Source: an uncultured Verrucomicrobia subdivision 3 bacterium (GTDB taxonomy: Bacteria; Verrucomicrobiota; Verrucomicrobiia; Limisphaerales; UBA11358). Taken from it: DNA of 64,000 nt. The notes beneath the pieces were generated by a model. That model saw only the letters and a list, made by a program, of their open reading frames with translations, was not told the DNA's origin and searched no databases. This document shows positions 2,812 to 15,933 of the stretch, in pieces. The stretch's first letter is position 1. Every line of letters begins with the position of its first letter. The DNA lies in NCBI GenBank assembly GCA_903895255.1, contig CAITTG010000001.1:1-64000 (forward strand), given 5' to 3'. A program made the position numbers and the translations under genes.

Positions 2812-3070
2812 TTTGACAACTCATCAGGCGATGCTAACATAAATGAGTAGTTTGGGCGCTTCCACCCGAACTCCACCAGCCGCGGCCAGCCAGTGGCCAG
2901 TCCGCCTTGGCTCCTTGGGTTACGGCGGCGGCGGTTCTTTGACATCGGCCCCCTGGAAAAGGCCCGCTGGCGGTAGGCGTTGTGCAAATCACAGGCCCAC
3001 AGCGATTTAACAAATTAACCAAATAACCCTTTAACCCAATAACGAATAAATCTTCAAGTTTCGCGAAGTT
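2812..3070 (+). repeat. Block-conserved intergenic element, copy A (upstream of DUF1800/DUF1501)
   Basis: Four blocks match the region 31065-31277 in the same order: TTTGACAACTCATCA (2812-2826), CTTTGACATCGGCCCC (2937-2952), AACCAAATAAC (3017-3027) and TCTTCAAGTTTCGCGAAGTT (3051-3070). The spacing between the second and third blocks is 80 here and 78 in the other copy. The sequence between blocks has diverged. The fourth block ends about 200 bases before the downstream start codon; in copy B the distance is about 235. It could be a conserved 5' leader or a small RNA gene. Confidence 0.6.
2813..2840 (+). promoter_or_regulatory. Putative sigma70-type promoter of the conserved element, copy A
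   Basis: TTGACA at 2813-2818, a 16-base spacer, then TAACAT at 2835-2840. The same first block in the second copy carries the consensus TATAAT at the same spacing, which supports a promoter reading. Transcription would run toward the DUF1800 gene. Confidence 0.55.
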
Positions 3071-3271
3071 CCTTCCTTCGGTAAGCCCCAAAAACCCGCT
3101 TATTTTCTCCAATTTTTGGCAAAATGTGCCAAAGTTAGTAAAATCCCCACAGGGGCACCCAATCGTCCAAAAATCAACCGGTAAAAAAGTCCGCTCTCCC
3201 AAACCTCTGGCATTGTTTCCTTTGCTGGTTTGCTGAAACTTTTGCCCCGGCCGCCGCGTCTCAGTTTATGT

Positions 3272-4756
3272 ATGTTAAAGCCGCTGTCACCATCGCGCTG
3301 GGATTACACCACAGCCGCGCATCTGTTGAACCGGGCCGGCTTCGGGGGCACGCCGGCGGAAATCAACCACCTGGTCCAACTGGGCCCCGACCAGGCGGTC
3401 GCCTCGCTGGTGGATTACGAAACCATTCCCGATCCGGTGGTCAACCCCGCCTGGGCGCACCCCGATCCGGACCGCATCAAGCATTATCAGGCCCTGCGCG
3501 ACGCCGCCACGCCCGAGGCGCGCAGGTTGTTGATCCTGGAGCAAAACCAGTTTGTGCAGCGCAGCATGGTGGAATTGCGCGGCTGGTGGCTGCACCGCAT
3601 GGCCTATGGACCCCGTCCTTTCCAGGAAAAAATGGTGCTCTTTTGGCACGGCCATTTTGCGACCAGCGTCGAAAAAGTGCGCGATCCCTATTATATGTGG
3701 CAGCAGAATGACTTGTTCCGCCGTCACGCCACCGGCAACTGGGAATTGCTGCTGCTGGAGTCCGGCAAGGACCCGGCCATGCTGGTCTGGCTTGACCAGG
3801 CCCAGAGCCGCAAGAACCATCCCAATGAAAACTACGCCCGCGAAGTCATGGAACTCTTCAGCCTGGGCGAGGGGCATTACACCGAGAAGGACATCTCCGA
3901 AGGCGCCCGCGCCCTCACCGGCTGGTCCCTGGACCGAATCAATCAGGAGTACGTCTACCGGCCCTTCCTCCATGACAACGGCGAAAAGGTCTTTCTGGGC
4001 CGGCACGGCAACCTGGATGGCGACGACGTCATCGCCCAGATTGTCGCCCAACCCCAGGCGGCGCGCTTTATCACGGGTAAACTCTGGAATTATTTTGCCG
4101 GGCAGATGCCTTCGGAGGAACTGAACGAAGCCCTCGCCGGGGTGTTTCGCGAAAATAACAACAATTTCAAGCCCCTGCTGGAAGTCATGTTCCGCAGCGA
4201 GGAGTTTTACGACGCCGAGATCATCCGCAACCAGGTGAAAAGTCCGGTGCAATGGCTGGTGGGCAGCGTGCGTATGTTGGAATGCGAACTGCCGCCCCCG
4301 ATTCTGTGCATGGGCATGCTGCGGCAGTTGGGTCAGGATTTGTTCAACCCACCCAACGTCAAGGGCTGGGACGGCGGCATCACCTGGATCACCACCAACA
4401 CACTGCTTACCCGGTATAATGACGCCCAGTCACTGGTGCGCGGCACCCCGCCCAATCTGACGGCCGCTGACTTCGCCCCCAAGGCCGGCGGTCAGGGCGG
4501 TCAAAAAGTGGCGCACTTCGCCGCGCAACTGCGCATGGGCGGGGTGGCGCTGGACAAGATTTTCACCCCGGCCGAACTGGCCAACAAAAACGAGCTGGTG
4601 GCGTCGCTCGAACGCCGTCTCCTGCAAGCGCCCCTCTCCGGCCAGCAGGAGCAGACGCTGAATGATTTTCTGGCGGCCAAACCCCAATTAACACACGACG
4701 ATATTTTGACGGTCATTCGACTGGTCATGAGTACTCCCGAATACCAAGTGGCCTAA
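3272..4756 (+). CDS. DUF1800 domain-containing protein
   Basis: This protein of about 494 residues has hallmarks of the DUF1800 family. These are an N-terminal LLNRAGFGG with a following 'AVASLVDYE', a conserved WWLHRMAYGPRPFQEKMVLFWHGHFATS stretch (quoted in part as WWLHRM and FWHGHF), NENYAREVMELFSLG, ARALTGWS, and LGQDLFNPPNVKGWDGG near the C-terminus. The family is usually encoded next to a DUF1501 protein, as here, with 18 bases between the genes. I chose the ATG at 3272 because translation begins directly before the conserved region; an in-frame TTG at 3230 would add 14 residues without a signal peptide. The biochemical role of the family is unsettled. Confidence 0.9.
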   Translation: MLKPLSPSRWDYTTAAHLLNRAGFGGTPAEINHLVQLGPDQAVASLVDYETIPDPVVNPAWAHPDPDRIKHYQALRDAATPEARRLLILEQNQFVQRSMVELRGWWLHRMAYGPRPFQEKMVLFWHGHFATSVEKVRDPYYMWQQNDLFRRHATGNWELLLLESGKDPAMLVWLDQAQSRKNHPNENYAREVMELFSLGEGHYTEKDISEGARALTGWSLDRINQEYVYRPFLHDNGEKVFLGRHGNLDGDDVIAQIVAQPQAARFITGKLWNYFAGQMPSEELNEALAGVFRENNNNFKPLLEVMFRSEEFYDAEIIRNQVKSPVQWLVGSVRMLECELPPPILCMGMLRQLGQDLFNPPNVKGWDGGITWITTNTLLTRYNDAQSLVRGTPPNLTAADFAPKAGGQGGQKVAHFAAQLRMGGVALDKIFTPAELANKNELVASLERRLLQAPLSGQQEQTLNDFLAAKPQLTHDDILTVIRLVMSTPEYQVA

Positions 4757-4774
4757 CCCCCAATTGAGGCACCT

Positions 4775-6118
4775 ATGAAAAACGAAATCACCCTCCAAAC
4801 CCGCCGCCAGTTCCTGCGCACCACCATGCTGGGGAGCGCGCTTTCCTGGACCGTTCCGGCCTTTCTCGCCGACACCTTTTCCGCGCTGCACGCCGGTGCC
4901 GCTGATTCCGCCACCCAGATCGTCACCGGCAAGGACGCCACTATTCTGGTGGTTTTGCAGATGGCCGGCGGCAACGACGGCATCAACACCGTGGTGCCTT
5001 ACTCCAGCGATGATTATCACCGGGCCCGTCCGCGCCTGGGCCTGACCGGCGACCAGATCATCAAAATCAACGGCGACGTGGGCTTCAACGCCGCGCTGGC
5101 GGGCTTCAAGGATTTGTACGATGCCGGGCAATTGTCGGTGATCCAGGGCGTGGGGTATCCCAATCCCAACCGTTCCCATTTCCGTTCGACGGAAATTTGG
5201 CAAACGGCCAGTGACGCCGATCGCATTGAAAAGTACGGCTGGCTAGGCCGCTACTTTGACAATGCCTGCGCCGGGGCGGACCCGACGGTGGGTGTGACCA
5301 TTGGCAACCAGTTGCCGGAGGCGTTTTTCGCGAAGCAACCGAAGGGCATCGTGTTCAACAACCCTCAAAATTACCGGTTTGTTTCCGGGGAGCACGCGAA
5401 GATGGGCGGGGCAGACATGACGGAGGAGTCTTACAAGAAGCTGAATGAGCTGGAAATGTCCGGCAATGCGCCGGAGGACAACTCCGGCGGCAGCATCGCC
5501 TCGCTGCCGGCGGGCATGCCCATGCAGGGCGGCCGGGCGGTGGATTTTATCACGCGCACGGCGCTGGACGCCCAAGTCAGTTCCGACGAGGTGCGGGCCA
5601 TCGCCGCGCGGGTGAAAAATCAGGCGGAATACCCGGCCTCGCAACTGGGCAGTTCCCTGGGACTGGTGTCCAAATTAATCGGCGGCGGTCTGCCCACGCG
5701 GGTTTATTACGTTTCTCAGGGCGGCTATGACACCCATACCAACCAAATTGGCACGCAACAGCGCCTGCTGAAAGACCTCGGCGATTCTCTCAAGGCCTTC
5801 ACCGCGGACTTGAAGGCGCAGGGCAATATGCAACGGGTGGTGGTGATGACCTTCAGCGAATTCGGCCGGCGGGTGGCGGAAAACGCCAATGGCGGCACGG
5901 ATCATGGCGCGGCCGCACCGATGTTTGTCATTGGCAATCAGGTGAAGGCTGGTTTGCTGGGCCGCTATCCCAGCCTGGCACCGGCGGATTTGTACCAGGG
6001 CGATATTCGCTACAACGTGGATTTTCGCAGCATCTATGCGGGACTGCTGGAGGACTGGTTGAAGACGCCGAGCGCGCCGATTTTGGGCCGACAGTTTGAG
6101 AATCTGAAGGTGGTGTGA
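4775..6118 (+). CDS. DUF1501 domain-containing protein (Tat-exported)
   Basis: 447 residues. The N-terminus has a twin-arginine signal, TRRQFLRTT, followed by a hydrophobic segment ending near residue 40, so export by the Tat pathway is expected. The family core is visible: LVVLQMAGGNDGINTVVPY, YHRARPRLGL, GVGYPNPNRSHFRSTEIW, SQGGYDTHTNQ, and VVVMTFSEFGRRVAENANGGTDHGAA near the C-terminus (each quoted in part). DUF1501 proteins are related to the alkaline phosphatase/sulfatase fold. It is almost certainly cotranscribed with the preceding DUF1800 gene. Confidence 0.92.
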   Translation: MKNEITLQTRRQFLRTTMLGSALSWTVPAFLADTFSALHAGAADSATQIVTGKDATILVVLQMAGGNDGINTVVPYSSDDYHRARPRLGLTGDQIIKINGDVGFNAALAGFKDLYDAGQLSVIQGVGYPNPNRSHFRSTEIWQTASDADRIEKYGWLGRYFDNACAGADPTVGVTIGNQLPEAFFAKQPKGIVFNNPQNYRFVSGEHAKMGGADMTEESYKKLNELEMSGNAPEDNSGGSIASLPAGMPMQGGRAVDFITRTALDAQVSSDEVRAIAARVKNQAEYPASQLGSSLGLVSKLIGGGLPTRVYYVSQGGYDTHTNQIGTQQRLLKDLGDSLKAFTADLKAQGNMQRVVVMTFSEFGRRVAENANGGTDHGAAAPMFVIGNQVKAGLLGRYPSLAPADLYQGDIRYNVDFRSIYAGLLEDWLKTPSAPILGRQFENLKVV

Positions 6119-6437
6119 TCTATTAAGAGCCGATGGGAGTAGAAAGCTCCAAACTCAACATCCAAGCGCCAGAGAAAAATCAAAATCCAAGCGGGAAGGG
6201 GGTGTAAACTGGGATTTGTTCGGAAACTCGTTACCTCGTTTCCTACCAGATCATGTGCGAAGGTTTGGCGGGACTCGGACGGTTGCGGGGGGCGAATAAT
6301 GCGGAACTCCTGGACGCCGCTGCGGGAATTGGGGACGGCGGTCACAGACCGCCACTAAAGCTTCAACCTCGGATGGGTACGGATGCAAAAAGACCACGAT
6401 TTAATTGGGATTACAGGAAGTCAGGAGGCAGAGGGAT
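6119..6437. other. Intergenic stretch between convergent genes with a dispersed repeat
   Basis: No gene is supported. At 6137-6190 it contains one copy of a short A/C-rich repeat (CAAGCGCCAGAGAAA followed by ATCAAAATCCAAGCG) that recurs at several other intergenic sites in this window. The rest shows nothing recognisable. Confidence 0.5.
6137..6190 (+). repeat. Dispersed CCAAGCKCCAGAGAAA-type repeat
   Basis: Contains AAAGCTCCAAACTCAACATC, then CAAGCGCCAGAGAAA and ATCAAAATCCAAGC. Close relatives lie at 18285-18335, 38424-38475 and, inverted, 52722-52783. Confidence 0.55.
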
Positions 6438-7067
6438 TTACTGGCCAGGAGTCTGGGGATTGCGCACGCCGCCGAAGACGGTGCGGATGATGGCCCGGGC
6501 CTGGGTTTCATCCAGGGGGCCGTGGCCGACCAGCAAACGATACACCATCGGACCGAAGATCAGGTCCAGCACGAGGTCGCCATCCACACTGGGATGAATT
6601 TCCCCGCGGGCCACGCCGCGCTGCCAGATGATTTTTAAATTCTGGCGGCAGGGTTTGAGAAAGCGTTCGCGGAAAAGCTGGCGCAGTTCGGGATCGCTCT
6701 GGCCCTCGGCGATAAAATGACACAACAGCCGTCCACTGGAATTTTTGTAAAAATCGATGGCGGCCTCGAATTGGATGGTGAAATCATGCTCGGCCGAGCC
6801 GGTGTCGGGAATGGCCACCGCCTCCTGCATGCTGGCGAGGAAAGCATCCAGGGCCACGATGTTTTTGTTGGGCCACCACTTGTAGAGGGTTGCCTTGCTC
6901 ACCCCGGCTTTGCGGGCAATATCCGCAGCCGTGACGTCGCGCAGGGGCCGTTTGGCCAGCAGATTCATGGTGGCGTGCAGAATCGCCGATTCGGCCTCGA
7001 CACTGCGCTGGCGTCCCCGGCGTTTGGCCTTGGGAGCGGGCAGGATATCGGCTGCGCTGATTGACAT
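6438..7067 (-). CDS. TetR/AcrR family transcriptional regulator
   Basis: 209 residues. The N-terminal helix-turn-helix is clear at about residues 25-70: ILHATMNLLAKRPLRDVTAADIARKAGVSKATLYKWWPNK (key parts AADIARKAGVSKATLY). A C-terminal ligand-binding half follows, with a 'GPMVYRLLVGHGPL' segment typical of the TetR_C group. It is transcribed divergently from the Ser/Thr kinase at 7256 with 188 bases between them, so it may control itself and that gene. No clean palindromic operator could be picked out. Confidence 0.9.
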   Translation of the reverse strand: MSISAADILPAPKAKRRGRQRSVEAESAILHATMNLLAKRPLRDVTAADIARKAGVSKATLYKWWPNKNIVALDAFLASMQEAVAIPDTGSAEHDFTIQFEAAIDFYKNSSGRLLCHFIAEGQSDPELRQLFRERFLKPCRQNLKIIWQRGVARGEIHPSVDGDLVLDLIFGPMVYRLLVGHGPLDETQARAIIRTVFGGVRNPQTPGQ

Positions 7068-7255
7068 AATGAGTTGCCTTGTTACTGCAAATTCCCCTCA
7101 ACCAGAATATAGTGTCATAGTCAGCGGGATTTTTCACCAAGTTTTTTCGGTTTTGAACACCTCCCGGGGAGGGTGGTCTGAAAACGGCAAGGCGCGGTTG
7201 GCCGTTGACGAAACCTGGTGGTCCAGTGCAACGTCTTGCCCGGTAATGTCCAATC

Positions 7256-9451
7256 ATGCCCAACCGATTTAAACAACCGCTCTGGCTTGTGCCCCTGGCG
7301 ATCGCCGCCCTCGTGGGGGTATTTGGCTGGTGGGGCAATCTCCGCCTGCGCGACACCATCCAGGACCAGTTGCGCGCCCAACTCAACGCCACCCTCAATG
7401 CCAATGTCACCGCACTGGCGATCTGGACCACCAACCAGATCAAATTTGTCACCCTGCTGGCCGAGGATCCGGGCGTGCGCAATCTGGGACTGCGGATTTT
7501 GGAGAACCCGCCGGTCGCCGGGCCGGATTTTCGCCCGACCCCGGACGCGGAGAAATTTGGGAATTATCTACGGCCCCGGCTCAACCAGATGGGCTATGAG
7601 ATTGCCCAGTTGGTCAATACGAATTTCATCGTGGCCGCCGCCTCCGGGCGGGTTCGCTCGCCGGTCGGCACGCCGATTTTTGACGCGCATACGAACAAGT
7701 TTGCGGAGCTCTTTGAGGCCGACCAACCGGTCATGATCACCCCTTTCAAACCCGACAAACTGCTGGATGGACGCGGTCCGCGCCCAGGTATTGGTTTGGA
7801 GGGCACGAACTCCTGGCGCCGTCCCCGCCGCCTAGCCCCACCGGGTGGCCGCCTCCGGCGCGGGGATGTCACGTTGATGCAAGTTGCCGCCCCGGTGCAT
7901 GACACGGCTGGCATCGTGCGCGGTGCCCTGGCCCTGATTATTAATCCGGACAACGAGTTTTCGCGCATTCTCTCGGTGGCGCGCTCCGGGGATTCGGGCG
8001 AAACTTATGCCTTTGACCAAACCGGCCTGTTGATTTCGCACAGCCGGTTCGACGCCCAGTTGCATCAGCTCGGGCTGCTGAATGCGACGAATACTAGTTC
8101 CGCCCTTTTTTTGCGCCTGCATGATCCCGGTGGCGACCTGACGGCAGGGTATCAGCCCACCGATCCCGATCCGGCCACGCGTCCGCTCATTCTGTCGGCA
8201 GCCGCCGCTGTGGAGGGCTTGGATGGGGTGGAGGTGGAGCCGTTCCGTGATTATCGCGGCGTGCCGGTGGTCGGCGCTTGGCGCTGGCTGCCGCATCTGG
8301 GGTTTGGGGTGGCCACCCAGATCGACGCGGATGAGGCTTACCGGCCATTGCATATTGTGCGGTTGTTATTTTTGATGCTCCTGTTACTGCTGATTCTCTG
8401 CGCGATTGGCATGTTCCTCTTTTCGTATGCCAACGTGGCCTCCCGCCGGCGCTTGACCGAGGCCGAGCTCAAGTTGAAACAATTGGGCCAGTACACGCTG
8501 GAGGAGAAAATTGGGGAGGGCGGCATGGGGGTGGTTTACCGGGCTCGCCATGCCCTCATGCGGCGGGACACGGCGGTGAAACTACTGCTGCCGGATCGCG
8601 CCGATCCGGAAAGCATCCAGCGCTTTGAACGCGAGGTCTGCCTGACCTGCCAGTTGACCCATCCCAACACCATCCAGGTTTACGATTATGGCCACACACC
8701 GGACGGGATTTTTTATTACGTCATGGAATACCTGCGCGGCCTCAATCTCCATGAATTGGTCGCCCGGTTTGGGCCGCCGCCTGAGGGCCGGGTCATTCAT
8801 ATTCTTCTCCAGATTTGTGATTCGCTCGCCGAGGCGCATGCGCTGGGGCTGATCCACCGTGACATCAAGCCTGGCAACGTTTTTCTCTGCGACCGCGGCG
8901 GCATTCCGGACTGTGTCAAAGTCCTGGACTTTGGCTTGGTGCAGGAATACCGCGCGGAAAACCGCCAGCAAATGAATCTGGCCGGCCGGGACGTGCTGGA
9001 GGGCACCCCATGGTTCATGCCGCCCGAGGCCATCCGCGACTCCATCTCCAGCGATCCGCGCAGCGATCTTTATTCAGTGGGCGCATTGGCGTATTATTTG
9101 TTGACCGGCACGTACGCTTACACCGGTGACACCATCCGCGACATTCACGACAAACAGCTCGCCGGGCCGCCCCCCGCACCCAGCCAGCGGGCCAACCTCG
9201 CCATTAGTCCCGAATTAGACACCCTGGTCCTACGCTGCCTGGCCGCCGATCCGGCGGCGCGTCCCCAATCCGCCAAGGAATTGCATGCGTGCCTGCTCGC
9301 CACTCCTGGCGCGACGTCTTGGACCGTGGCGGATCAGATCGCCTGGTGGGAGCGGTTCCACCAGCAATCGGTCGTGACGCAACTGACGGTGGATGAGGCC
9401 ACGCCCATGGCGACGGTGAAAATTGATATTAACACGCGTTTGCAGGGTTGA
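7256..9451 (+). CDS. Membrane serine/threonine protein kinase with extracytoplasmic Cache-like sensor
   Basis: 731 residues. A first membrane helix spans about residues 8-26, an extracytoplasmic region of about 330 residues resembles a double-Cache ligand sensor, and a second helix lies at about 366-388. A cytoplasmic Hanks-type kinase domain begins at Tyr413. Visible kinase motifs are the glycine loop GEGGMGVVYRAR, VAIB-type lysine in AVKLLLPDR, HRDIKPGN with catalytic Asp536, DFG at 558-560 and MPPEA. The C-terminal 60 residues have no recognised domain. The arrangement suggests an extracellular signal passed to Ser/Thr phosphorylation. Start ATG follows a 188-base intergenic region shared with the divergent TetR gene. 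Confidence 0.93.
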   Translation: MPNRFKQPLWLVPLAIAALVGVFGWWGNLRLRDTIQDQLRAQLNATLNANVTALAIWTTNQIKFVTLLAEDPGVRNLGLRILENPPVAGPDFRPTPDAEKFGNYLRPRLNQMGYEIAQLVNTNFIVAAASGRVRSPVGTPIFDAHTNKFAELFEADQPVMITPFKPDKLLDGRGPRPGIGLEGTNSWRRPRRLAPPGGRLRRGDVTLMQVAAPVHDTAGIVRGALALIINPDNEFSRILSVARSGDSGETYAFDQTGLLISHSRFDAQLHQLGLLNATNTSSALFLRLHDPGGDLTAGYQPTDPDPATRPLILSAAAAVEGLDGVEVEPFRDYRGVPVVGAWRWLPHLGFGVATQIDADEAYRPLHIVRLLFLMLLLLLILCAIGMFLFSYANVASRRRLTEAELKLKQLGQYTLEEKIGEGGMGVVYRARHALMRRDTAVKLLLPDRADPESIQRFEREVCLTCQLTHPNTIQVYDYGHTPDGIFYYVMEYLRGLNLHELVARFGPPPEGRVIHILLQICDSLAEAHALGLIHRDIKPGNVFLCDRGGIPDCVKVLDFGLVQEYRAENRQQMNLAGRDVLEGTPWFMPPEAIRDSISSDPRSDLYSVGALAYYLLTGTYAYTGDTIRDIHDKQLAGPPPAPSQRANLAISPELDTLVLRCLAADPAARPQSAKELHACLLATPGATSWTVADQIAWWERFHQQSVVTQLTVDEATPMATVKIDINTRLQG

Positions 9452-9484
9452 AGCATTGATGGCAAGGCTGCGAGAGCCGCCCCT

Positions 9485-9862
9485 TCACAAACGGTAACGC
9501 AGGCGCAATTCGGAGAGCAGATAATGCTCCACCGAGGAGACGTGGGCATCGCCGGCAAAGATGGCCTGCATGGCGGCATAAACTTTTTTGTGCTCGGAGC
9601 GCTCAGTGAATGCCTGGGCGAGAATGACGAGTTGGTCCCGGGCGCGCTGCACGGGATGGGCGACGGGTTTCATGCGGGCCAGGGCGGCTTCATACTCGCG
9701 CTGGCGCTCCACGTCGGTGTTGTAGCCCAGGGCTTGGAAGAGGGAATCCAGCCGGGAATCATTGGCGGGGGGCAGTTGACCGTCGGCCTCCAGCGCCAGC
9801 ACATATAGATCCAGCAAGGCCCGCTGCTGAAAGGGGGTAAATTCAGAGACATCAATGTCCAT
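9485..9862 (-). CDS. TerB-like small helical protein
   Basis: About 125 residues from the ATG at 9862 (MDIDVSEFTPFQQRALLDL); an upstream in-frame TTG would add 16 residues. The pattern of acidic helices (LDLYVLALEADGQLPPANDSRLD) resembles TerB-type tellurite-resistance helical bundles, and residues such as D and E in ALEADG fit that family, but identity is low and this is a tentative call. It is convergent with the kinase gene and lies downstream of the RluA gene on the same strand. Confidence 0.55.
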   Translation of the reverse strand: MDIDVSEFTPFQQRALLDLYVLALEADGQLPPANDSRLDSLFQALGYNTDVERQREYEAALARMKPVAHPVQRARDQLVILAQAFTERSEHKKVYAAMQAIFAGDAHVSSVEHYLLSELRLRYRL

Positions 9863-9931
9863 GAAAGCAGCTTGCCAGATTTTTGGCAGGAGTTCAAGGA
9901 TTGCTCCCAACCAAATGCCCGGCCGGGAAAC

Positions 9932-10810
9932 TCAGGGTTTCGCGGTCGGAGAATTTTTGCCGGCGGCCGGGGGGGACATTTTCCCGGGCGCGGGTTGTTG
10001 ACGGGCGGCTGGTGGTTTGGGCTGTCCGGGCACCTGGGCGGGTTTGCCAGCGTTCGGAGGGGGGATGGTCAAGGGTTTTTTAACCGTTTGCGCCAGCGAC
10101 GGGGTGAACCCGTACTCGCTCATGAACCCTTCGATGGGCGCGCGGATTTCCACGCGCCGCCGGGTGAAGGGATCCACATAGCCGAGCTTGATGGCGCGCA
10201 AACCGAGTTGCATGCGGCTGTCCACTTTGCCGTAGAGTTCGTCGCTCACGATGGGGCAGCCGGATTGCGCGAGGTGCACTCGGATTTGATGGGTGCGGCC
10301 GGTCAGGGGATGCGCCTCCACGAGGGAAATCCGCTCCTTCTTTTGCAGCAACCGGAAACGGGTCTCGGACTCCTTGCCCTCCTGGGTGTCGATGATCATG
10401 CGCCCGATCTGGCGGGGATCCGGGGCGAGGGGCAGGCGGCAAGTCCATTCGGTTTCGCGGGGCACGCCCTCGACGATGGCCAGGTAATTTTTCTCCATCT
10501 GACGGCTTTCGAAGACGTCGCCAAAGGCTTCGACGGCGCCCATGCTTTTGGCAAAGAGCATTACGCCGCTGGTGTCCGTGTCCAGGCGGTGAACATAGCG
10601 GAGGAATTTCAGATTCCGGGAGCGCGCCCAGTAATCGCCGGCCGAGATGGAGGAGTTGATGGCGGCCTGCAAATTGCGGTTAGTGTTCTGCCAGTTGACC
10701 GGCACGAGGAGCCAGCCGCGCGGCTTGTCGATGGCCAGCACCGCGCGATCCTCGTAAAGAATCGGGATGGGCTCGCAAAACGGCAGTTCAATAAAATTGG
10801 GTTTGGCCAT
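9932..10810 (-). CDS. RluA family pseudouridine synthase
   Basis: 292 residues. The catalytic motif HRLDTDTSGVMLFAKS holds the conserved Asp of the RluA/RluC/RluD group. Other family signatures are IDKPRGWL near residue 30, the LTGRTHQIRVHL motif, and the ELYG segment. No S4 domain is evident. The C-terminal 45 residues are Pro/Ala/Lys rich (PNAGKPAQVPGQPKPP...), an extension not needed for catalysis and probably disordered. The protein should convert uridine to pseudouridine in an rRNA or tRNA; the exact target cannot be deduced. Confidence 0.9.
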   Translation of the reverse strand: MAKPNFIELPFCEPIPILYEDRAVLAIDKPRGWLLVPVNWQNTNRNLQAAINSSISAGDYWARSRNLKFLRYVHRLDTDTSGVMLFAKSMGAVEAFGDVFESRQMEKNYLAIVEGVPRETEWTCRLPLAPDPRQIGRMIIDTQEGKESETRFRLLQKKERISLVEAHPLTGRTHQIRVHLAQSGCPIVSDELYGKVDSRMQLGLRAIKLGYVDPFTRRRVEIRAPIEGFMSEYGFTPSLAQTVKKPLTIPPPNAGKPAQVPGQPKPPAARQQPAPGKMSPPAAGKNSPTAKP

Positions 10811-10970
10811 GAGCTAAAGGTGATTGAATGAAACGGCTGGCCGGTCAGATCGCGCTGGGCGAGGCCGACGGTTCAACATCTTCAATTCTCTCATCATACA
10901 GCGATTCGCGGTCTTTGCCAGAGCAAAAACAACGGCGCGCGGATGTTTCGACGGCTGGTCTGGCTGCATT

Positions 10971-11705
10971 TTAGAGATGGTGAATCGTTTTAACCGCGGC
11001 ATCCGGACTGGTCAAACGCTGAATTTTCCTGCGCCGGAGAAACCCGGCCACGCCCAAAATCACGAGCACGGTCGAGGCGATTTGGTAGCCGGAGAGCGGG
11101 CCGGCAATCGGCGGGGTGTCCCGCAGAAATTCATGGGCGAAGCGAAAGCTGCCGTAGGCAATCAGGTACAGGTGAAAATGCTGGCCGGGCAGGGCTTGCT
11201 GGCGGCGCAGCAGCAAAATCACCGAGAGCATCAACGCATTAAAGCCTAGTTCCACCGGCACCGCCGGCCAGCGGGCAGTGCCGTGCCGGTCGTTTAGCGT
11301 GTACCAAGCCGGTTCGCAGACGCGACCGAGGCAGCAGCCATGGAGCAAGCAACCGACGCGGCCGAGCATGATGCTGATGGGCGTGACCACCGCGAACCAG
11401 TCGCCGGTGCCCGGGGTGTAGCCCAGCAATTTCTTGGCAATTTCGACCCCGGCATAGCCACCGAGGAGGCCGCCGAGGATGGATTTACCGGTGGCGAGTT
11501 GCCGCCACCGATCTGGATCGTGCCAGTGCAGCCAGCCTTCGGCCCCGAGATAAACAAGTTTGGCCCCAAGCAGGGCGCCGGCCAGGGCGGCGACGTAGAT
11601 AAGCACCAGTCGCTCATCCCGCCGGGCGACGCGCGACCAGATGACCAGGCTCACCAGAATACCGGCGAGCATTAACCAGCCGTAGGCGGTGGAAACTATG
11701 ACCAT
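10971..11705 (-). CDS. Lgt-like membrane protein (prolipoprotein diacylglyceryl transferase family)
   Basis: About 244 residues from the ATG at 11705; an in-frame GTG at 11732 is an alternative and would extend the overlap with the upstream gene from 10 to 37 bases. There are six or seven hydrophobic segments and Lgt-like features: GGLLGGYAG and GRVGCLLHGCCLGR. In canonical Lgt the second motif reads GRxGNFxNxE. Here the Asn and Glu positions are replaced by a GCxxxGCC version, so transferase activity on prolipoproteins is not assured. Neighbours on the same strand are two small membrane proteins and a Tes-like radical SAM protein, which suggests a shared membrane role. Confidence 0.75.
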   Translation of the reverse strand: MVIVSTAYGWLMLAGILVSLVIWSRVARRDERLVLIYVAALAGALLGAKLVYLGAEGWLHWHDPDRWRQLATGKSILGGLLGGYAGVEIAKKLLGYTPGTGDWFAVVTPISIMLGRVGCLLHGCCLGRVCEPAWYTLNDRHGTARWPAVPVELGFNALMLSVILLLRRQQALPGQHFHLYLIAYGSFRFAHEFLRDTPPIAGPLSGYQIASTVLVILGVAGFLRRRKIQRLTSPDAAVKTIHHL

Positions 11706-12052
11706 GGGGAAGTGCGGTCCGTTTGGGAGCACCCGATGAGAATGAAAACCACCATGTTTGCGATAAAAAGGAAACCCATTAGAAATATCGACAGGATCAC
11801 TCGCAAGGCCCTGCTCCGCATGCCGCTCACCAGGCCAATTCCAGCAACAAGGCTGCAGATAAGTGTGAGAATCAATAGAGCCTTTCCGAGACTTTGATCG
11901 ATAGGGGTGATTTGCATCATGCCCAAAGCCAGCACGCTGGGTATAATCGCCTCAAAGAGCCAGACGATTTTGGGCAGCGTTTTTTGGGGCGCGGGTTTGC
12001 CGGGCGGAACGGACACGTTTGCTGGCGGGAGCGGCTCAGGTTGGTCGTTCAT
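11696..12052 (-). CDS. Small membrane protein, paralog of 12120-12467
   Basis: 118 residues. A Pro-rich N-terminus (MNDQPEPLPP...) precedes three predicted membrane helices. The last helix carries GFLFIAN and ends in ILIGCSQ. The neighbouring gene product shares the MND-x-PE start, the PK-x-x-WLF entry to the first helix, and the GFLFIAN ... IL-x-GC end, so the two arose by tandem duplication. No known family was recognised. Stop codon overlaps the start of the Lgt-like gene. Confidence 0.7.
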   Translation of the reverse strand: MNDQPEPLPPANVSVPPGKPAPQKTLPKIVWLFEAIIPSVLALGMMQITPIDQSLGKALLILTLICSLVAGIGLVSGMRSRALRVILSIFLMGFLFIANMVVFILIGCSQTDRTSPWS

Positions 12053-12119
12053 AAATCAAAGCTCATGTTAGCCGGATTCTGGCAGCTATGGGGATTATTA
12101 ATCAGGTGCATGGGATGGT

Positions 12120-12467
12120 TCAGAACTGGCTGCGGTTGCAGCCCAGTAGAATTACAATCGCGAAGTTGGCGATGAATAAGAACCCAATGAGGAAAAGGGT
12201 CAGGGCGGTCCGCGCACCAGTGGTTTCCACACTTTTCATGCCCCGCACCAGACAGATGCCAGCAAGCACGCTGAAAGGCGCGTTCAGTCCCAACAGGACC
12301 AGCATGGCTTCCATCGGATTAGTGAACGTTTGCAACATGATCAAGCCGGCGAGGCTGGGCGAGAATCCCACAAACAACCAGGTCATTTTGGGGGGCGGCG
12401 CGGAAGATTGTTTCTCGCCGGGTGTTGGTTCCGGTGCCAACGGCGGGAGTTCCGGATGGTCATTCAT
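12120..12467 (-). CDS. Small membrane protein, paralog of 11696-12052
   Basis: 115 residues with the same plan as its downstream neighbour: MNDHPELPP start, Pro-rich segment, PPKMTWLF entry, three helices, and a final GFLFIAN ... ILLGCNRSQF. It starts 11 bases after the radical SAM gene stops, so the two are probably cotranscribed. Function unknown. Confidence 0.7.
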   Translation of the reverse strand: MNDHPELPPLAPEPTPGEKQSSAPPPKMTWLFVGFSPSLAGLIMLQTFTNPMEAMLVLLGLNAPFSVLAGICLVRGMKSVETTGARTALTLFLIGFLFIANFAIVILLGCNRSQF

Positions 12468-12478
12468 AGCTCAAAAGT

Positions 12479-13891
12479 TTATTTGGCGGCGCAGTCGGAA
12501 AAACCGGAATAGTAGCGGCAGAAGGAATCCAGTTTGCCATCGGGGCGGATCACGTGGGTGCAACAGCGGTCGATGCGGTCCTCGTCCCACGTGTGGGCGT
12601 CCATGAAGGGTTTGATGAAGAGCCGGAAGGTGTGGGTTTCGTCCAGCTCAAATTTTTTGAGCAATTCACCCAGCGGCTCGGATTCGCAGCCGCAGCGCAT
12701 GAGGTCCTCCAGTTTGTAACGGAGTTTCGTGCTCAGAAAGCCCTGCACATTTTTGAAATCAATGAAGTCACTTACCGACCGCACCCGGCCATCAACCTTG
12801 AGGAGGTAGCCGATGGTGGCGCAATTCGGGTCGCCGCAGGGCAGGGGGGTGAAGTCCTCAAACCGCAGCCTGCCGCTGGACTGACCCACCGCCGCGAGAA
12901 TGATATCCGCGGTGTTCAGTCGGGGGGTGGTGGTTGCCGGGTTGCGGCCGCTGGTGAACAGTGGTTGAAAGGCCACGCCGCGCACATTCGGCCAGTTCAG
13001 GGCGAAATCAATCGTCTCCCAGAGGCTGGGCAGATTCTCTGGGGTGACTGTCATGGCAAGGGTCACAGGCAGGTTCATCTCCCGGCAGCGCGCCAAGCAG
13101 CGCTCGCGGAGGCCGCGCAGGTCCGTTCCGCGCAAGGCTTTTTGGCCCGCCGCCTGAACGCCGTCGAATTGCAGGTAGAGTTGGAACGCGCCATAACGGA
13201 AGGCCGCGCCGAGTTCGGTGGTAAAGGCATCGTCACTGACGATGCGCAGGCCGTTGGTGTTGAGCAGTACGTAATCAATTTGGGGATGATCCTGCAGCCA
13301 GCGCAGGAGTTCGAAGAATTGGGGATGCAGCGTTGGTTCGCCACCCGATAGTTGCAGGATTTCGATTCCGCCTTTGCGGTCGATGACACCTTGTATCCGA
13401 CATTTCAAATCAGCCAGGGGCACGGCGTCCACCAGTGGACCGGTGCCGGGCAGGGAATCAGCATAGCAGGTGGTACAGGTGAGATTGCAGGAATTTACGA
13501 TTTCAATGAGGCAGAGGCAGGTGGCCAGTTTTTCCATGACACCGAGCGCCTCGCCCGGACTGGCATTGCGGCCGAGGGTGCCCGTGACGAGGCCATCCAC
13601 CGCCCGGCAGGCGCCATTGGCCAGGGCAGGCTCATGGGCCGGGCGGTTGGCTGCTTTGCCCTGGGCCAACCAGTAAAAGCGCGCATCGGAGGCCAGGCAG
13701 GCGGATGCTTCGCCGTGGGTGGGACATAAGCGTTTGAGCCAGACTTGGGCGGTGAGGCCGCCGGTGCGCCACACCTCGGCAGGACAGGGAGCATGGCAGA
13801 CGGGGCAGCGGGAGGTGGTGCGTTTGAGCAATTTGTCCACCAATTGCAATTTTTCGGGACCGACCGGGGGATGGGAACTGGACGTATTCAT
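12479..13891 (-). CDS. Radical SAM protein of the Tes/MJ0619-like group
   Basis: About 470 residues from the ATG at 13891, which has a good GGAG site eight bases upstream. The N-terminal 65 residues form a Cys-rich module (C29, C32, C36, C56, H59: RCPVCHAPCPAEVW ... KRLCPTHGE). The radical SAM signature CxxxCxxC follows at C135-C139-C142 in NSCNLTCTTCYA, then LQLSGGEPTLHP for SAM binding. The C-terminus has further cysteines (CGCESE, CCTHVIRPDG, FCRYYSGFSDC) that may bind extra clusters. This architecture is like that of the archaeal tetraether lipid synthase Tes and MJ0619, as I recall those proteins. A lipid or other membrane substrate is inferred; the exact reaction is unknown. Confidence 0.8.
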   Translation of the reverse strand: MNTSSSHPPVGPEKLQLVDKLLKRTTSRCPVCHAPCPAEVWRTGGLTAQVWLKRLCPTHGEASACLASDARFYWLAQGKAANRPAHEPALANGACRAVDGLVTGTLGRNASPGEALGVMEKLATCLCLIEIVNSCNLTCTTCYADSLPGTGPLVDAVPLADLKCRIQGVIDRKGGIEILQLSGGEPTLHPQFFELLRWLQDHPQIDYVLLNTNGLRIVSDDAFTTELGAAFRYGAFQLYLQFDGVQAAGQKALRGTDLRGLRERCLARCREMNLPVTLAMTVTPENLPSLWETIDFALNWPNVRGVAFQPLFTSGRNPATTTPRLNTADIILAAVGQSSGRLRFEDFTPLPCGDPNCATIGYLLKVDGRVRSVSDFIDFKNVQGFLSTKLRYKLEDLMRCGCESEPLGELLKKFELDETHTFRLFIKPFMDAHTWDEDRIDRCCTHVIRPDGKLDSFCRYYSGFSDCAAK

Positions 13892-13913
13892 TAATAATTC
13901 TCCATAAAAGATT

Positions 13914-14333
13914 TCAGCGATGGCTATTGAATGCATTTGAACCAAATGAGCATCCCACAAAACAGAGAAAAAATGCCAAGGCCAGCATACCTGATTGCAC
14001 CAGTATTGCGAGCCAACTGCGTTCCCTGCCGGTTACTCCCAAGCGCGCCATGATCATGCGGGAGCAAACAATTCCGGACCAAAGGCTGCCCCCAAGCGTA
14101 AATAAAAGGGTAAGCAGGTCGGCGTCGCAAGCCAGAGCGATAAAGTTGCCGACGGGTGGAATGAATAAAATGATAAAGAACCTCCGCCAGTTCGTCTTGC
14201 CGGGGTTCAAAGTCAAAGGCGGCGTGGCGGGCACGGCAGCCAGTTCCTGGTGGCAGAAGGGGCAGGGGCCATGCAATCCGGTTCCAGGCAAAGGCCGGGC
14301 GCAATGGGGGCAAGTGGCGGCTCTTTGGCTCAT
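13914..14333 (-). CDS. Zinc-ribbon membrane protein
   Basis: 139 residues from the ATG at 14333. Two CxxC pairs at the N-terminus (CPHC and CPFC) form a zinc ribbon, followed by three or four hydrophobic segments. The last segment ends LCFVGCSFGSN, close to the C-terminal IL-x-GC-S/N endings of the two small membrane proteins downstream. It sits immediately upstream of the radical SAM gene (22 bases) and probably begins that operon. No characterised family recognised. Confidence 0.65.
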   Translation of the reverse strand: MSQRAATCPHCARPLPGTGLHGPCPFCHQELAAVPATPPLTLNPGKTNWRRFFIILFIPPVGNFIALACDADLLTLLFTLGGSLWSGIVCSRMIMARLGVTGRERSWLAILVQSGMLALAFFLCFVGCSFGSNAFNSHR

Positions 14334-14489
14334 GCGTTTTCTTTTCACAGTAAACACAATCAGCGGCACGGCAAGCGAATTGGTTCCGAGATCCTAGCGG
14401 GGGGATGGAGCCAGCGGGATGAGCCCATGGCGGGCGGGATTCAATATTGCAGTTTGAAGTTTCACCGACTTTCGCCAAACTCTCCCGGC

Positions 14490-14870
14490 ATGGACTGGCT
14501 TGATCATCTCACCCACTGGTGGCGGCATTTGGCGGCGGGCTTTAGTTTGCTCGCCGCGCTACTGGCCGCCGCGCACGCGCTTCTGCACAAACGGGATGTG
14601 CGGGCGGCCACGCTTTGGCTGGGCATCATCTGGTTGCTGCCGGCGCTGGGCCCCGCGCTGTATTTGGTGCTGGGCGTTAACCGCATCCGGCGGCGGGCCA
14701 TTCAACTGGGGGTGCATGCCACCGGCAAAGGAGTGGTCCCGGGCAATTTCGGGGAGCCGGAGGCTGAGGGTGCCCGCCATCTCCAAATGCTGGCCCGGGT
14801 CGTCGACCGGGTGGTGGGGCAGCCGCTCATCCCGGGCAATCAGATCGAACCGCTGGTCAATGGGGGATGA
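14490..14870 (+). CDS. N-terminal fragment of a frameshifted cardiolipin synthase
   Basis: Starts at ATG 14490 (MDWLDHLTHWW) and encodes two membrane helices, the usual N-terminus of cardiolipin synthases, then the linker ending QIEPLVNGG before a TGA at 14868-14870. The next frame continues with DEAFPAMLAAIDAAQ, exactly the expected sequence. Removing one G from the G5 run at 14862-14866 joins the two fragments. This is either a real disabling mutation, a slippery site, or a homopolymer error. Confidence 0.8.
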   Translation: MDWLDHLTHWWRHLAAGFSLLAALLAAAHALLHKRDVRAATLWLGIIWLLPALGPALYLVLGVNRIRRRAIQLGVHATGKGVVPGNFGEPEAEGARHLQMLARVVDRVVGQPLIPGNQIEPLVNGG

Positions 14871-15933
14871 GGCCTTTCCGGCCATGCTTGCCGCCATCGA
14901 TGCCGCCCAAACTTCCGTCTCGCTGGTCAGTTACATTTTCGACAACGATGCCAGTGGCCGCCGGTTCGTGGAGGCACTCCGTGCCGCCCAGGCGCGCGGT
15001 GTCGCCGTGCGGGTGCTCGTGGATTCCGCCGGCACCCGCTATTCCTTTCCTTCCATCATGCACCCGCTCAAACAGGCGGGCTTGCCGACGGCGAAATTTC
15101 TGCCGTCGTCCATCCTGGCGCCCTGGCGGGCGACGACCATCAACCTGCGGAACCATCGCAAAGTCATGGTGGTTGATGGTCGCGTGGCTTTCACGGGTGG
15201 CATGAATCTCCGGCAGGGCAATCTGCTTCGGGAGCAGCCCCGCAGTCCCGTGCAGGATTTGCATTTTCGCGTCACCGGCCCGATCGTCACCCGGCTGCAG
15301 GAGGCGTTTGTCAATGACTGGGCCTTTACCACCGATGAAATTCTCACGGGCGACCCATGGTTTCCCGAACTGGCCGGCACGGGTGAGGTTATTGCCCGCG
15401 TTATTCCCGACGGACCGGACGGCGATTTTGAGAAATTGCGCTGGACCCTCCTGGCCGCGCTCGCCGAGGCGCAAACCTCGGTGCAAATCATCACCCCGTA
15501 TTTTCTGCCGGACCTCACCCTCGTGGCCGCCTTGAATCTCGCGGTCATGCGCGGTGTGCGCGTGGACATCATCCTGCCCGGCAAAAGCAACCTGCCGCCG
15601 GTCCATTGGGCTTCGCGGGCGATGTGGTGGCAGGTGTTGGAACGCGGCTGCCACCTGTGGCTGACCCCGCCCCCGTTTGACCATTCCAAGCTCGTGGTGC
15701 TGGACGATCACTGGGTGCTGCTCGGCTCGGCCAACTGGGATCCCCGAAGCTTGCGGTTGAATTTTGAATTAAATGTGGAAGCCTATGGCCGGGATTTCGC
15801 CCTCAGCATGAAGAAAATCGTGGCGCAGAAACTCGCCGGGGCTCACGAGGTTACGCTCAAGGAAGTGGATGCCCGCACCACCCCGGGAAAATTGCGCGAC
15901 GCCATCGCCCGCCTGTTTTCGCCGTTTTTATAA
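14866..15933 (+). CDS. cls: Catalytic part of a frameshifted cardiolipin synthase (phospholipase D family)
   Basis: Both HKD motifs of the phospholipase D superfamily are intact: LRNHRKVMVVDGR ... GGMN in the first half and FDHSKLVVLDDHWVLLGSANWDPRSL (key residues H, K, D, GSANWD) in the second. The enzyme makes cardiolipin from phosphatidylglycerol or related lipids at the inner membrane. Without the N-terminal helices, which lie in the other frame (14490-14870), translation could restart at ATG 14884, giving a protein lacking its membrane anchor. It is transcribed divergently from the radical SAM/membrane-protein run, so membrane lipid genes face each other here. Confidence 0.85.
   Translation, partial: DEAFPAMLAAIDAAQTSVSLVSYIFDNDASGRRFVEALRAAQARGVAVRVLVDSAGTRYSFPSIMHPLKQAGLPTAKFLPSSILAPWRATTINLRNHRKVMVVDGRVAFTGGMNLRQGNLLREQPRSPVQDLHFRVTGPIVTRLQEAFVNDWAFTTDEILTGDPWFPELAGTGEVIARVIPDGPDGDFEKLRWTLLAALAEAQTSVQIITPYFLPDLTLVAALNLAVMRGVRVDIILPGKSNLPPVHWASRAMWWQVLERGCHLWLTPPPFDHSKLVVLDDHWVLLGSANWDPRSLRLNFELNVEAYGRDFALSMKKIVAQKLAGAHEVTLKEVDARTTPGKLRDAIARLFSPFL

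Follow-up and report, generated by a model that had tools for sequence, protein, structure and literature searches.

We analysed a 64,000-nucleotide stretch (hereafter the window; positions 1 to 64,000 of contig CAITTG010000001.1, assembly GCA_903895255.1) from an uncultured Verrucomicrobia subdivision 3 bacterium, whose assembly comprises 5.06 Mb in 135 contigs and whose close relatives are "Verrucomicrobia subdivision 3" and Pedosphaera metagenome-assembled genomes. The subject is a run of five minus-strand genes, which in order of transcription encode a membrane protein with a zinc ribbon, a radical S-adenosylmethionine (SAM) enzyme, two small membrane proteins that we call A and B, and a membrane protein resembling Lgt, the diacylglyceryl transferase of lipoproteins. 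With the Lgt-like gene starting at the ATG at 11705, the four intergenic gaps are 22, 11, 67, and -10 bp; given this tight packing, the five genes probably form one operon-like transcript.

The first gene (13914..14333) encodes a small membrane protein of 139 amino acids with an N-terminal zinc ribbon, three predicted transmembrane segments, and a tail cysteine at residue 128 (...FLCFVG-C-SFGSNAFNSHR); this helix-end cysteine motif and the tail, FVGCSFGSNAFNSHR, occupy 13917..13961. It is followed by the radical SAM gene (12479..13891; 470 amino acids; Tes/TrsS superfamily) and by protein A (12120..12467; 115 amino acids), which ends in ...FAIVILLG-C-NRSQF, with the helix-end cysteine and tail (LLGCNRSQF) at 12123..12149 and the cysteine codon at 12138-12140. 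Protein B (11696..12052; 118 amino acids) is a paralogue of A and ends in ...MVVFILIG-C-SQTDRTSPWS, with the corresponding stretch, LIGCSQTDRTSPWS, at 11699..11740 and the cysteine codon at 11729-11731. The last codons of its gene overlap the start of the Lgt-like gene (10971..11705), for which the GTG at 11732 is another possible start; residues of the Lgt-like protein are numbered from this GTG. A preliminary description of this DNA had named these five genes and a cardiolipin synthase facing them, all of which we found at the positions it gave, and had called A and B paralogous; a single homologue at another locus (L029) does match both, with 42% and 49% identity, and the two proteins cluster together.

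The radical SAM protein and its distance from Tes and TrsS

The radical SAM protein matched PF04055 (4e-14) and the Zn_ribbon_HMPTM (MJ0619) module of Pfam at its N-terminus (PF23545, 5.5e-13), bearing out the cysteine-rich N-terminal module of Tes/MJ0619 that the preliminary description had recognised. Its best NCBIfam model was TrsS (NF045646), which covered nearly the whole length at 204 bits, short of the 490-bit cut-off, and the Tes model (NF045702) gave 147.7 bits against a cut-off of 450. The nearest solved structure, both by sequence and by predicted fold (predicted local distance difference test score 77), was Tes (7TOM/7TOL; Foldseek template modelling (TM) score 0.70), with SkfB as the second family among the matches in the PDB.

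Individual residues were compared with those of Tes in an alignment of 58 proteins that was checked against the Tes structure paper (PMC9433317). The rubredoxin-like site is invariant (C29/C32/C56/H59, corresponding to C9/C12/C33/H36 of Tes), and the protein has a radical SAM (RS) cluster motif (C135-x3-C139-x2-C142) and the C-terminal cluster ligands C357, C443, C444, and C458; the segment between C-terminal cluster ligands measures 70 residues, as against 101 in MJ0619. The [Fe4S4]N ligand set of Tes, C73/C77/C80 (CxxxCxxC), was not found in the window protein or its clade in this alignment: C77 is absent throughout the clade, and the cysteines aligned with C73 and C80 shift in position. C438 is also missing, Lys427 stands at the position of Met439, and Val stands at that of Tyr459; Met439, a labile residue, and Tyr459 are invariant in archaeal Tes (PMC9433317). 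In a phylogenetic tree, the Lgt-associated radical SAM proteins, that of the window among them, lie on one side of a branch, and Tes, relatives associated with methyltransferases (L107 and L109), and three paralogues from a same-genus genome (G021) lie on the other; support for this branch is 91/84, moderate only, and the tree holds several long branches. Because of the sub-cut-off score, the missing [Fe4S4]N set, and the Lys and Val in place of Met439 and Tyr459, the window protein, as judged from its sequence, appears to share the architecture of Tes yet to fail Tes membership.

These comparisons bear directly on the possibility that the protein is a bacterial Tes, which would couple lipid chains into membrane-spanning or tetraether-like lipids with the Lgt-like protein and the cardiolipin synthase as lipid partners. 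Tes as nearest structure and the retained RS, rubredoxin-like, and C-terminal cluster cysteines would fit such an enzyme, and bacterial Tes homologues have been proposed, though not confirmed, as makers of branched tetraethers (PMC8941075, PMC11868695). Yet TrsS outscores Tes with both far below their cut-offs, the [Fe4S4]N set is missing together with C438, Met439, and Tyr459, the C-terminal ligand segment is shortened, the protein groups away from Tes, the cardiolipin synthase is not conserved, and the membrane proteins with tail cysteines would be left unexplained. We therefore consider a Tes function for this protein improbable. Membrane-spanning or ether-like lipid synthesis, which the preliminary description had offered as an example, finds no backing in the missed Tes and TrsS cut-offs or the residue losses, and the tree, a comparison that it had itself proposed, sets the protein with Lgt-associated enzymes apart from Tes. 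Its broader idea of a lipid-modifying system keeps the Tes-superfamily fold and a conserved Lgt-like lipid-enzyme partner and loses Tes-type coupling of lipid chains, which is unsupported.

In the same-genus relative that holds the three paralogues, these Tes-like radical SAM genes stand in tandem and have retained the [Fe4S4]N cysteine set (L043, G021:C164:12500-32000, genes 3031-13971); their neighbours encode a ketosynthase, two ketoreductase-like proteins, an acyl-carrier protein, and a nitroreductase. This locus is a better candidate for bacterial lipid coupling than that of the window. At another locus (L035:11610-11693), the C-terminal end of the radical SAM protein is encoded a second time downstream of the complete gene (residues 440-467, with 96% identity), through either a partial duplication or an assembly artefact.

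A second possibility is that the radical SAM protein is itself a member of the TrsS (seleno)proteins, with the same undescribed function as theirs, and that the Lgt-like protein is the partner of one TrsS subgroup. In its favour, NF045646 was the best family for every member that we scanned; the scores of these members, however, range from 195 to 338 bits, far below the 490-bit equivalog cut-off, and the relatives neighboured by methyltransferases fall on the other side of the tree. No published function of TrsS was found in open-access full-text searches. We think this possibility unlikely.

Pairing with an Lgt-like protein

Homologues of the radical SAM gene across 60 related genomes and a named genome collection nearly always adjoin an Lgt-like gene on the same strand. 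In four phyla (Verrucomicrobiota, Armatimonadota, Bacteroidota, and Actinomycetota), the radical SAM gene has an Lgt-like paralogue no more than about 5 kb away on its own strand; the gene run singled out in the preliminary description is thus conserved as a recurring pair. Among 121 Armatimonadota genomes, a strong Lgt-like match (E < 1e-30) was present in 20 of the 24 with the radical SAM gene and in none of the 97 without it (Fisher 3e-19). An even draw of 289 Verrucomicrobiota genomes included nine with a full-length radical SAM gene, all nine of which had the Lgt-like gene, as against 1 of the remaining 280 (Fisher 3e-16); the two genes lay within 5 kb on the same strand in eight of the nine. 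The pair also occurs together in Persicobacter (L108, Bacteroidota), on plasmids of Mycobacterium avium and M. branderi, and in Nonomuraea. The actinobacterial records that carry both genes are L110 (M. avium pS2b), L132 (M. branderi), and L111 (Nonomuraea), and between them both mycobacterial plasmids encode small membrane proteins that end in CTGLNP....

Since the association holds across phyla, a chance neighbourhood is ruled out, and since the Lgt-like gene may come before or after the radical SAM gene depending on the locus, the inheritance of a single block does not by itself account for the link. The only other shared neighbours are small membrane proteins and, in one subgroup, an isoprenylcysteine methyltransferase (ICMT)-like protein and a cysteine-rich DUF4395 protein; relatives in Mycolicibacterium vanbaalenii and Haloarcula adjoin a class-I methyltransferase instead. 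We hold with high confidence that the radical SAM protein, the Lgt-like protein, and the small membrane proteins form one functional unit. A second radical SAM subgroup (L081, L108, L082, L083, and several Armatimonadota) has lost the C-terminal cluster but retains the N cluster, and several of its members have the ICMT-like methyltransferase and cysteine-rich DUF4395 protein; with a different cluster set and these added partners, the radical step may differ between subgroups. The DUF4395-like proteins have a cysteine-rich C-terminal tail (CPxSxxxxC...GGxCC) and stand beside, or are fused to, the ICMT-like methyltransferase, an arrangement that recurs next to the pair at seven loci (L121, L122, L123, L124, L127, L128, and L048).

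The gene facing the run (14500..15933, plus strand) is divergent; it matched the cardiolipin synthase model TIGR04265 (1e-70; 239 bits, below the cut-off of 290). The preliminary description was right about its presence and opposite orientation, and no homologue was recovered near the pair at other loci; we rejected it as part of the system on this ground, and it is probably a bystander. Farther off, at 7256-9451 on the plus strand, lies a gene for a large protein that, to judge by its sequence, looks like a Ser/Thr protein kinase with a fused sensor domain.

The Lgt-like protein matched PF01790 at 3e-27 (95.8 bits, above the gathering score of 24.9) and the Lgt structure 5AZB at 3.8e-18, which upholds the identity given in the preliminary description. 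It stayed below the Lgt equivalog cut-offs (TIGR00544, 43.5 of 118.9 bits; NF000778, 66 of 334 bits), and a canonical lgt is encoded separately elsewhere in the host genome. When aligned to E. coli Lgt (5AZB), it retains Y26, R143, G154, Y235, R239, E243, and R246 as Y22, R125, G136, Y193, R197, E201, and R204, with R125, R197, Y193, and G136, the counterparts of essential Lgt residues, invariant in the alignment of its group (A2). R143 and R239 of the E. coli enzyme are essential for transfer and lie near the phosphatidylglycerol site (PMC4728403). Three positions are altered (H103 to L86, N146 to C128, and E151 to C133), so that neither H103, nor a Tyr, Trp, or Phe in its place, nor N146 is present; the protein-substrate specificity of E. 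coli Lgt is set by H103, arm-2, and the head domain (PMC13251419). This pattern suggests an enzyme whose donor chemistry is retained and whose acceptor is changed.

The protein carries a motif, GRxGC-x3-GCC-x-G-x2-C, the GCC part of which is lacking in actinobacterial members; only the N146C change is general, and N146C is known among distant Lgt proteins (PMC13251419). We no longer define the group by its GCC motif, both for this reason and because one genome (G304) has a GCC-type Lgt with no nearby radical SAM gene. That protein (L084, G304:C231) has a Tyr at the H103 position and no radical SAM gene of this family close by; cysteine-substituted Lgt proteins therefore also exist outside the system linked to the radical SAM protein.

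Small membrane proteins and their tail cysteine

No Pfam family was found for the small membrane proteins of the window. Homologues of the zinc-ribbon protein lie upstream of the radical SAM gene at six other loci (L029, L030, L032, L035, L041, and L050), and the small membrane proteins in general are highly divergent between loci. What they have in common is that the last predicted helix ends in a cysteine, 4 to 14 residues from the C-terminus, as in all three window proteins (GCNRSQF, GCSQTDRTSPWS, and GCSFGSNAFNSHR). Counting neighbours of 55 to 200 amino acids with at least two predicted transmembrane segments (n = 68), with helices called by a simple hydropathy rule and gene starts guessed, we found such a cysteine (positions -4 to -14, where the last helix ends) in 48, compared with 15.9 ± 3.1 expected and a maximum of 26 in 1000 randomisations that placed cysteines at random among small and hydrophobic positions. 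The tail cysteine is also the most conserved internal column of the alignment, present in 92% of 51 aligned rows; the next column, start methionine aside, reaches 76%. A clustering-based test on 10 cluster representatives was uninformative, single linkage having lumped 45 of the proteins.

The residue preceding the tail cysteine is Gly, Ala, or Ser in 31 of the 48 tails (p 7e-7), and the same number fit a relaxed form of the lipobox ([LVI][ASTVI][GAS]C closing a hydrophobic segment), as against 4 for its strict form; the position is C-terminal rather than N-terminal. Each protein carries a net charge of about +2 before the last helix, from which the tail cysteine is predicted to face outwards, as in a lipobox. 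This helix-end motif, which was not part of the preliminary description, speaks for the modification of proteins and not for lipid synthesis in bulk.

A modified protein need not be a lipidated one. The system might instead resemble those that make ribosomally synthesized and post-translationally modified peptides, the radical SAM enzyme installing a crosslink or other change in the cysteine tail and the Lgt-like protein, no longer a lipid transferase, acting through its own cysteines as a partner in thiol-redox chemistry or transport. Enzymes with cysteine-containing peptides as substrates are common among radical SAM relatives, as the rank of SkfB among the structural matches illustrates, cysteines do replace Asn146 and Glu151, and the ICMT-like and cysteine-rich DUF4395 proteins are added in one subgroup. 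On the other hand, the whole donor site (R143, R239, Y235, E243, and R246) is retained, as if phospholipid chemistry went on; tail sequences are free to vary and have a single cysteine each, and the actinobacterial members keep only one of the cysteine changes, N146C. We accordingly rate a purely peptide-modifying role as doubtful.

A proposed modification system and its known counterparts

Our tentative reading, the chances of which we put somewhat below even, is that small membrane proteins are modified post-translationally by a system encoded at this locus, in which the Lgt-like protein would lipidate the tail cysteine and the radical SAM enzyme would modify the lipid or the cysteine tail. 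The substrates would be the small membrane proteins encoded beside the enzymes. Their last helix would run from the cytoplasm to the outside, ending in (Gly/Ala)-Cys and a tail of 3 to 13 residues, a geometry that would amount to a lipobox moved to the C-terminus. The Lgt-like enzyme, having kept the arginine pair that activates phosphatidylglycerol and altered its acceptor site, would load this cysteine with a diacylglyceryl group or another lipid; afterwards or beforehand, the Tes/TrsS-family enzyme would carry out a radical modification of the attached lipid or the cysteine-tail peptide. The specific chemistry is much less certain than the functional unit. A bolder version, which we regard as less likely still, is a bacterial C-terminal lipidation in which an Lgt paralogue would fix a phospholipid-derived anchor on a tail cysteine at the extracytoplasmic end of the last helix and a Tes-related radical SAM enzyme would carry out C-H chemistry on the anchor or the tail, possibly joining lipid chains while they are attached to the protein.

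Several observations weigh against lipidation of the tail. E. coli Lgt cannot do without N146, and low activity is presumed for a second mycobacterial Lgt that carries N146C (PMC13251419), for which reasons the Lgt-like paralogue might not be a diacylglyceryl transferase. A Foldseek search of its AlphaFold model against the PDB returned no Lgt structure and nothing better than E 0.59. The strict lipobox consensus occurs in only 4 of the 48 tails, a few loci (L056 and L079, for example) show no protein with a tail cysteine, and many of the small proteins may be remotely homologous, so that the cysteine counts are not fully independent. The genomic background is thin as well: 3 of 11 small membrane open reading frames (ORFs) far from the pair were positive for the tail cysteine, two of these on contigs where the radical SAM gene is cut by the contig end. 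Annotated E. coli offered too few small membrane proteins per stretch to serve as background, and randomisation of cysteine positions is a better control than the far ORFs.

If the proposal holds, a radical SAM step and a C-terminal attachment site would be added to lipoprotein biology, and the N146C-type Lgt paralogues, which are widespread, would gain a testable role. In the bolder version, the radical SAM step would be the first in lipoprotein maturation, and the pathway would have a distant functional parallel in the C-terminal lipidation of cysteines in eukaryotes. Bacterial relatives of Tes are now taken as a sign that bacteria make membrane-spanning lipids; this family shows that a tie to protein modification is more likely for some of them, and homologue counts may be misread as counts of lipid producers. 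With substrates, enzymes, and modification site named, the proposal is testable by one expression experiment. Open-access full-text literature yielded no prior description of the radical SAM and Lgt-like combination, and nothing relevant on Lgt with a radical SAM enzyme and an isoprenylcysteine methyltransferase or on a C-terminal lipobox.

Four known systems invite comparison. With Tes (GDGT-MAS; MJ0619, 7TOL/7TOM) the window radical SAM enzyme shares the fold, the N-terminal rubredoxin-like CxxC...CxxH, the RS motif CxxxCxxC, and the C-terminal cluster cysteines, but it differs in lacking [Fe4S4]N, in having Lys for Met439 and Val for Tyr459, in its shorter C-terminal segment, in its Lgt-like partner, and in its separate branch. 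TrsS (NF045646) is its best profile match over nearly the whole length, though at 204 of the 490 bits required and with an Lgt-like gene as partner. The Lgt-like protein resembles Lgt (PF01790, 5AZB) in its profile match and in the retained core (Arg143, Arg239, Tyr235, Glu243, and Arg246), and is unlike it in the changed H103 and N146, the cysteine-rich signature, the status as a second copy beside a canonical lgt, and the tie to a radical SAM enzyme.

The MYXO-CTERM and CGP-CTERM sorting tags consist of a C-terminal helix with an invariant cysteine and have a dedicated enzyme partner. The window system likewise has a C-terminal helix, a conserved cysteine, and a dedicated enzyme partner, but its putative substrates, tiny proteins of several helices, have their genes next to those of the enzymes, the partner enzyme resembles Lgt and not a sortase or rhomboid, and a radical SAM enzyme belongs to the set. 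By profile scores and residues, the system is not Tes, TrsS, or canonical Lgt, and we infer that it acts in the manner of lipoprotein modification, with a radical SAM step added.

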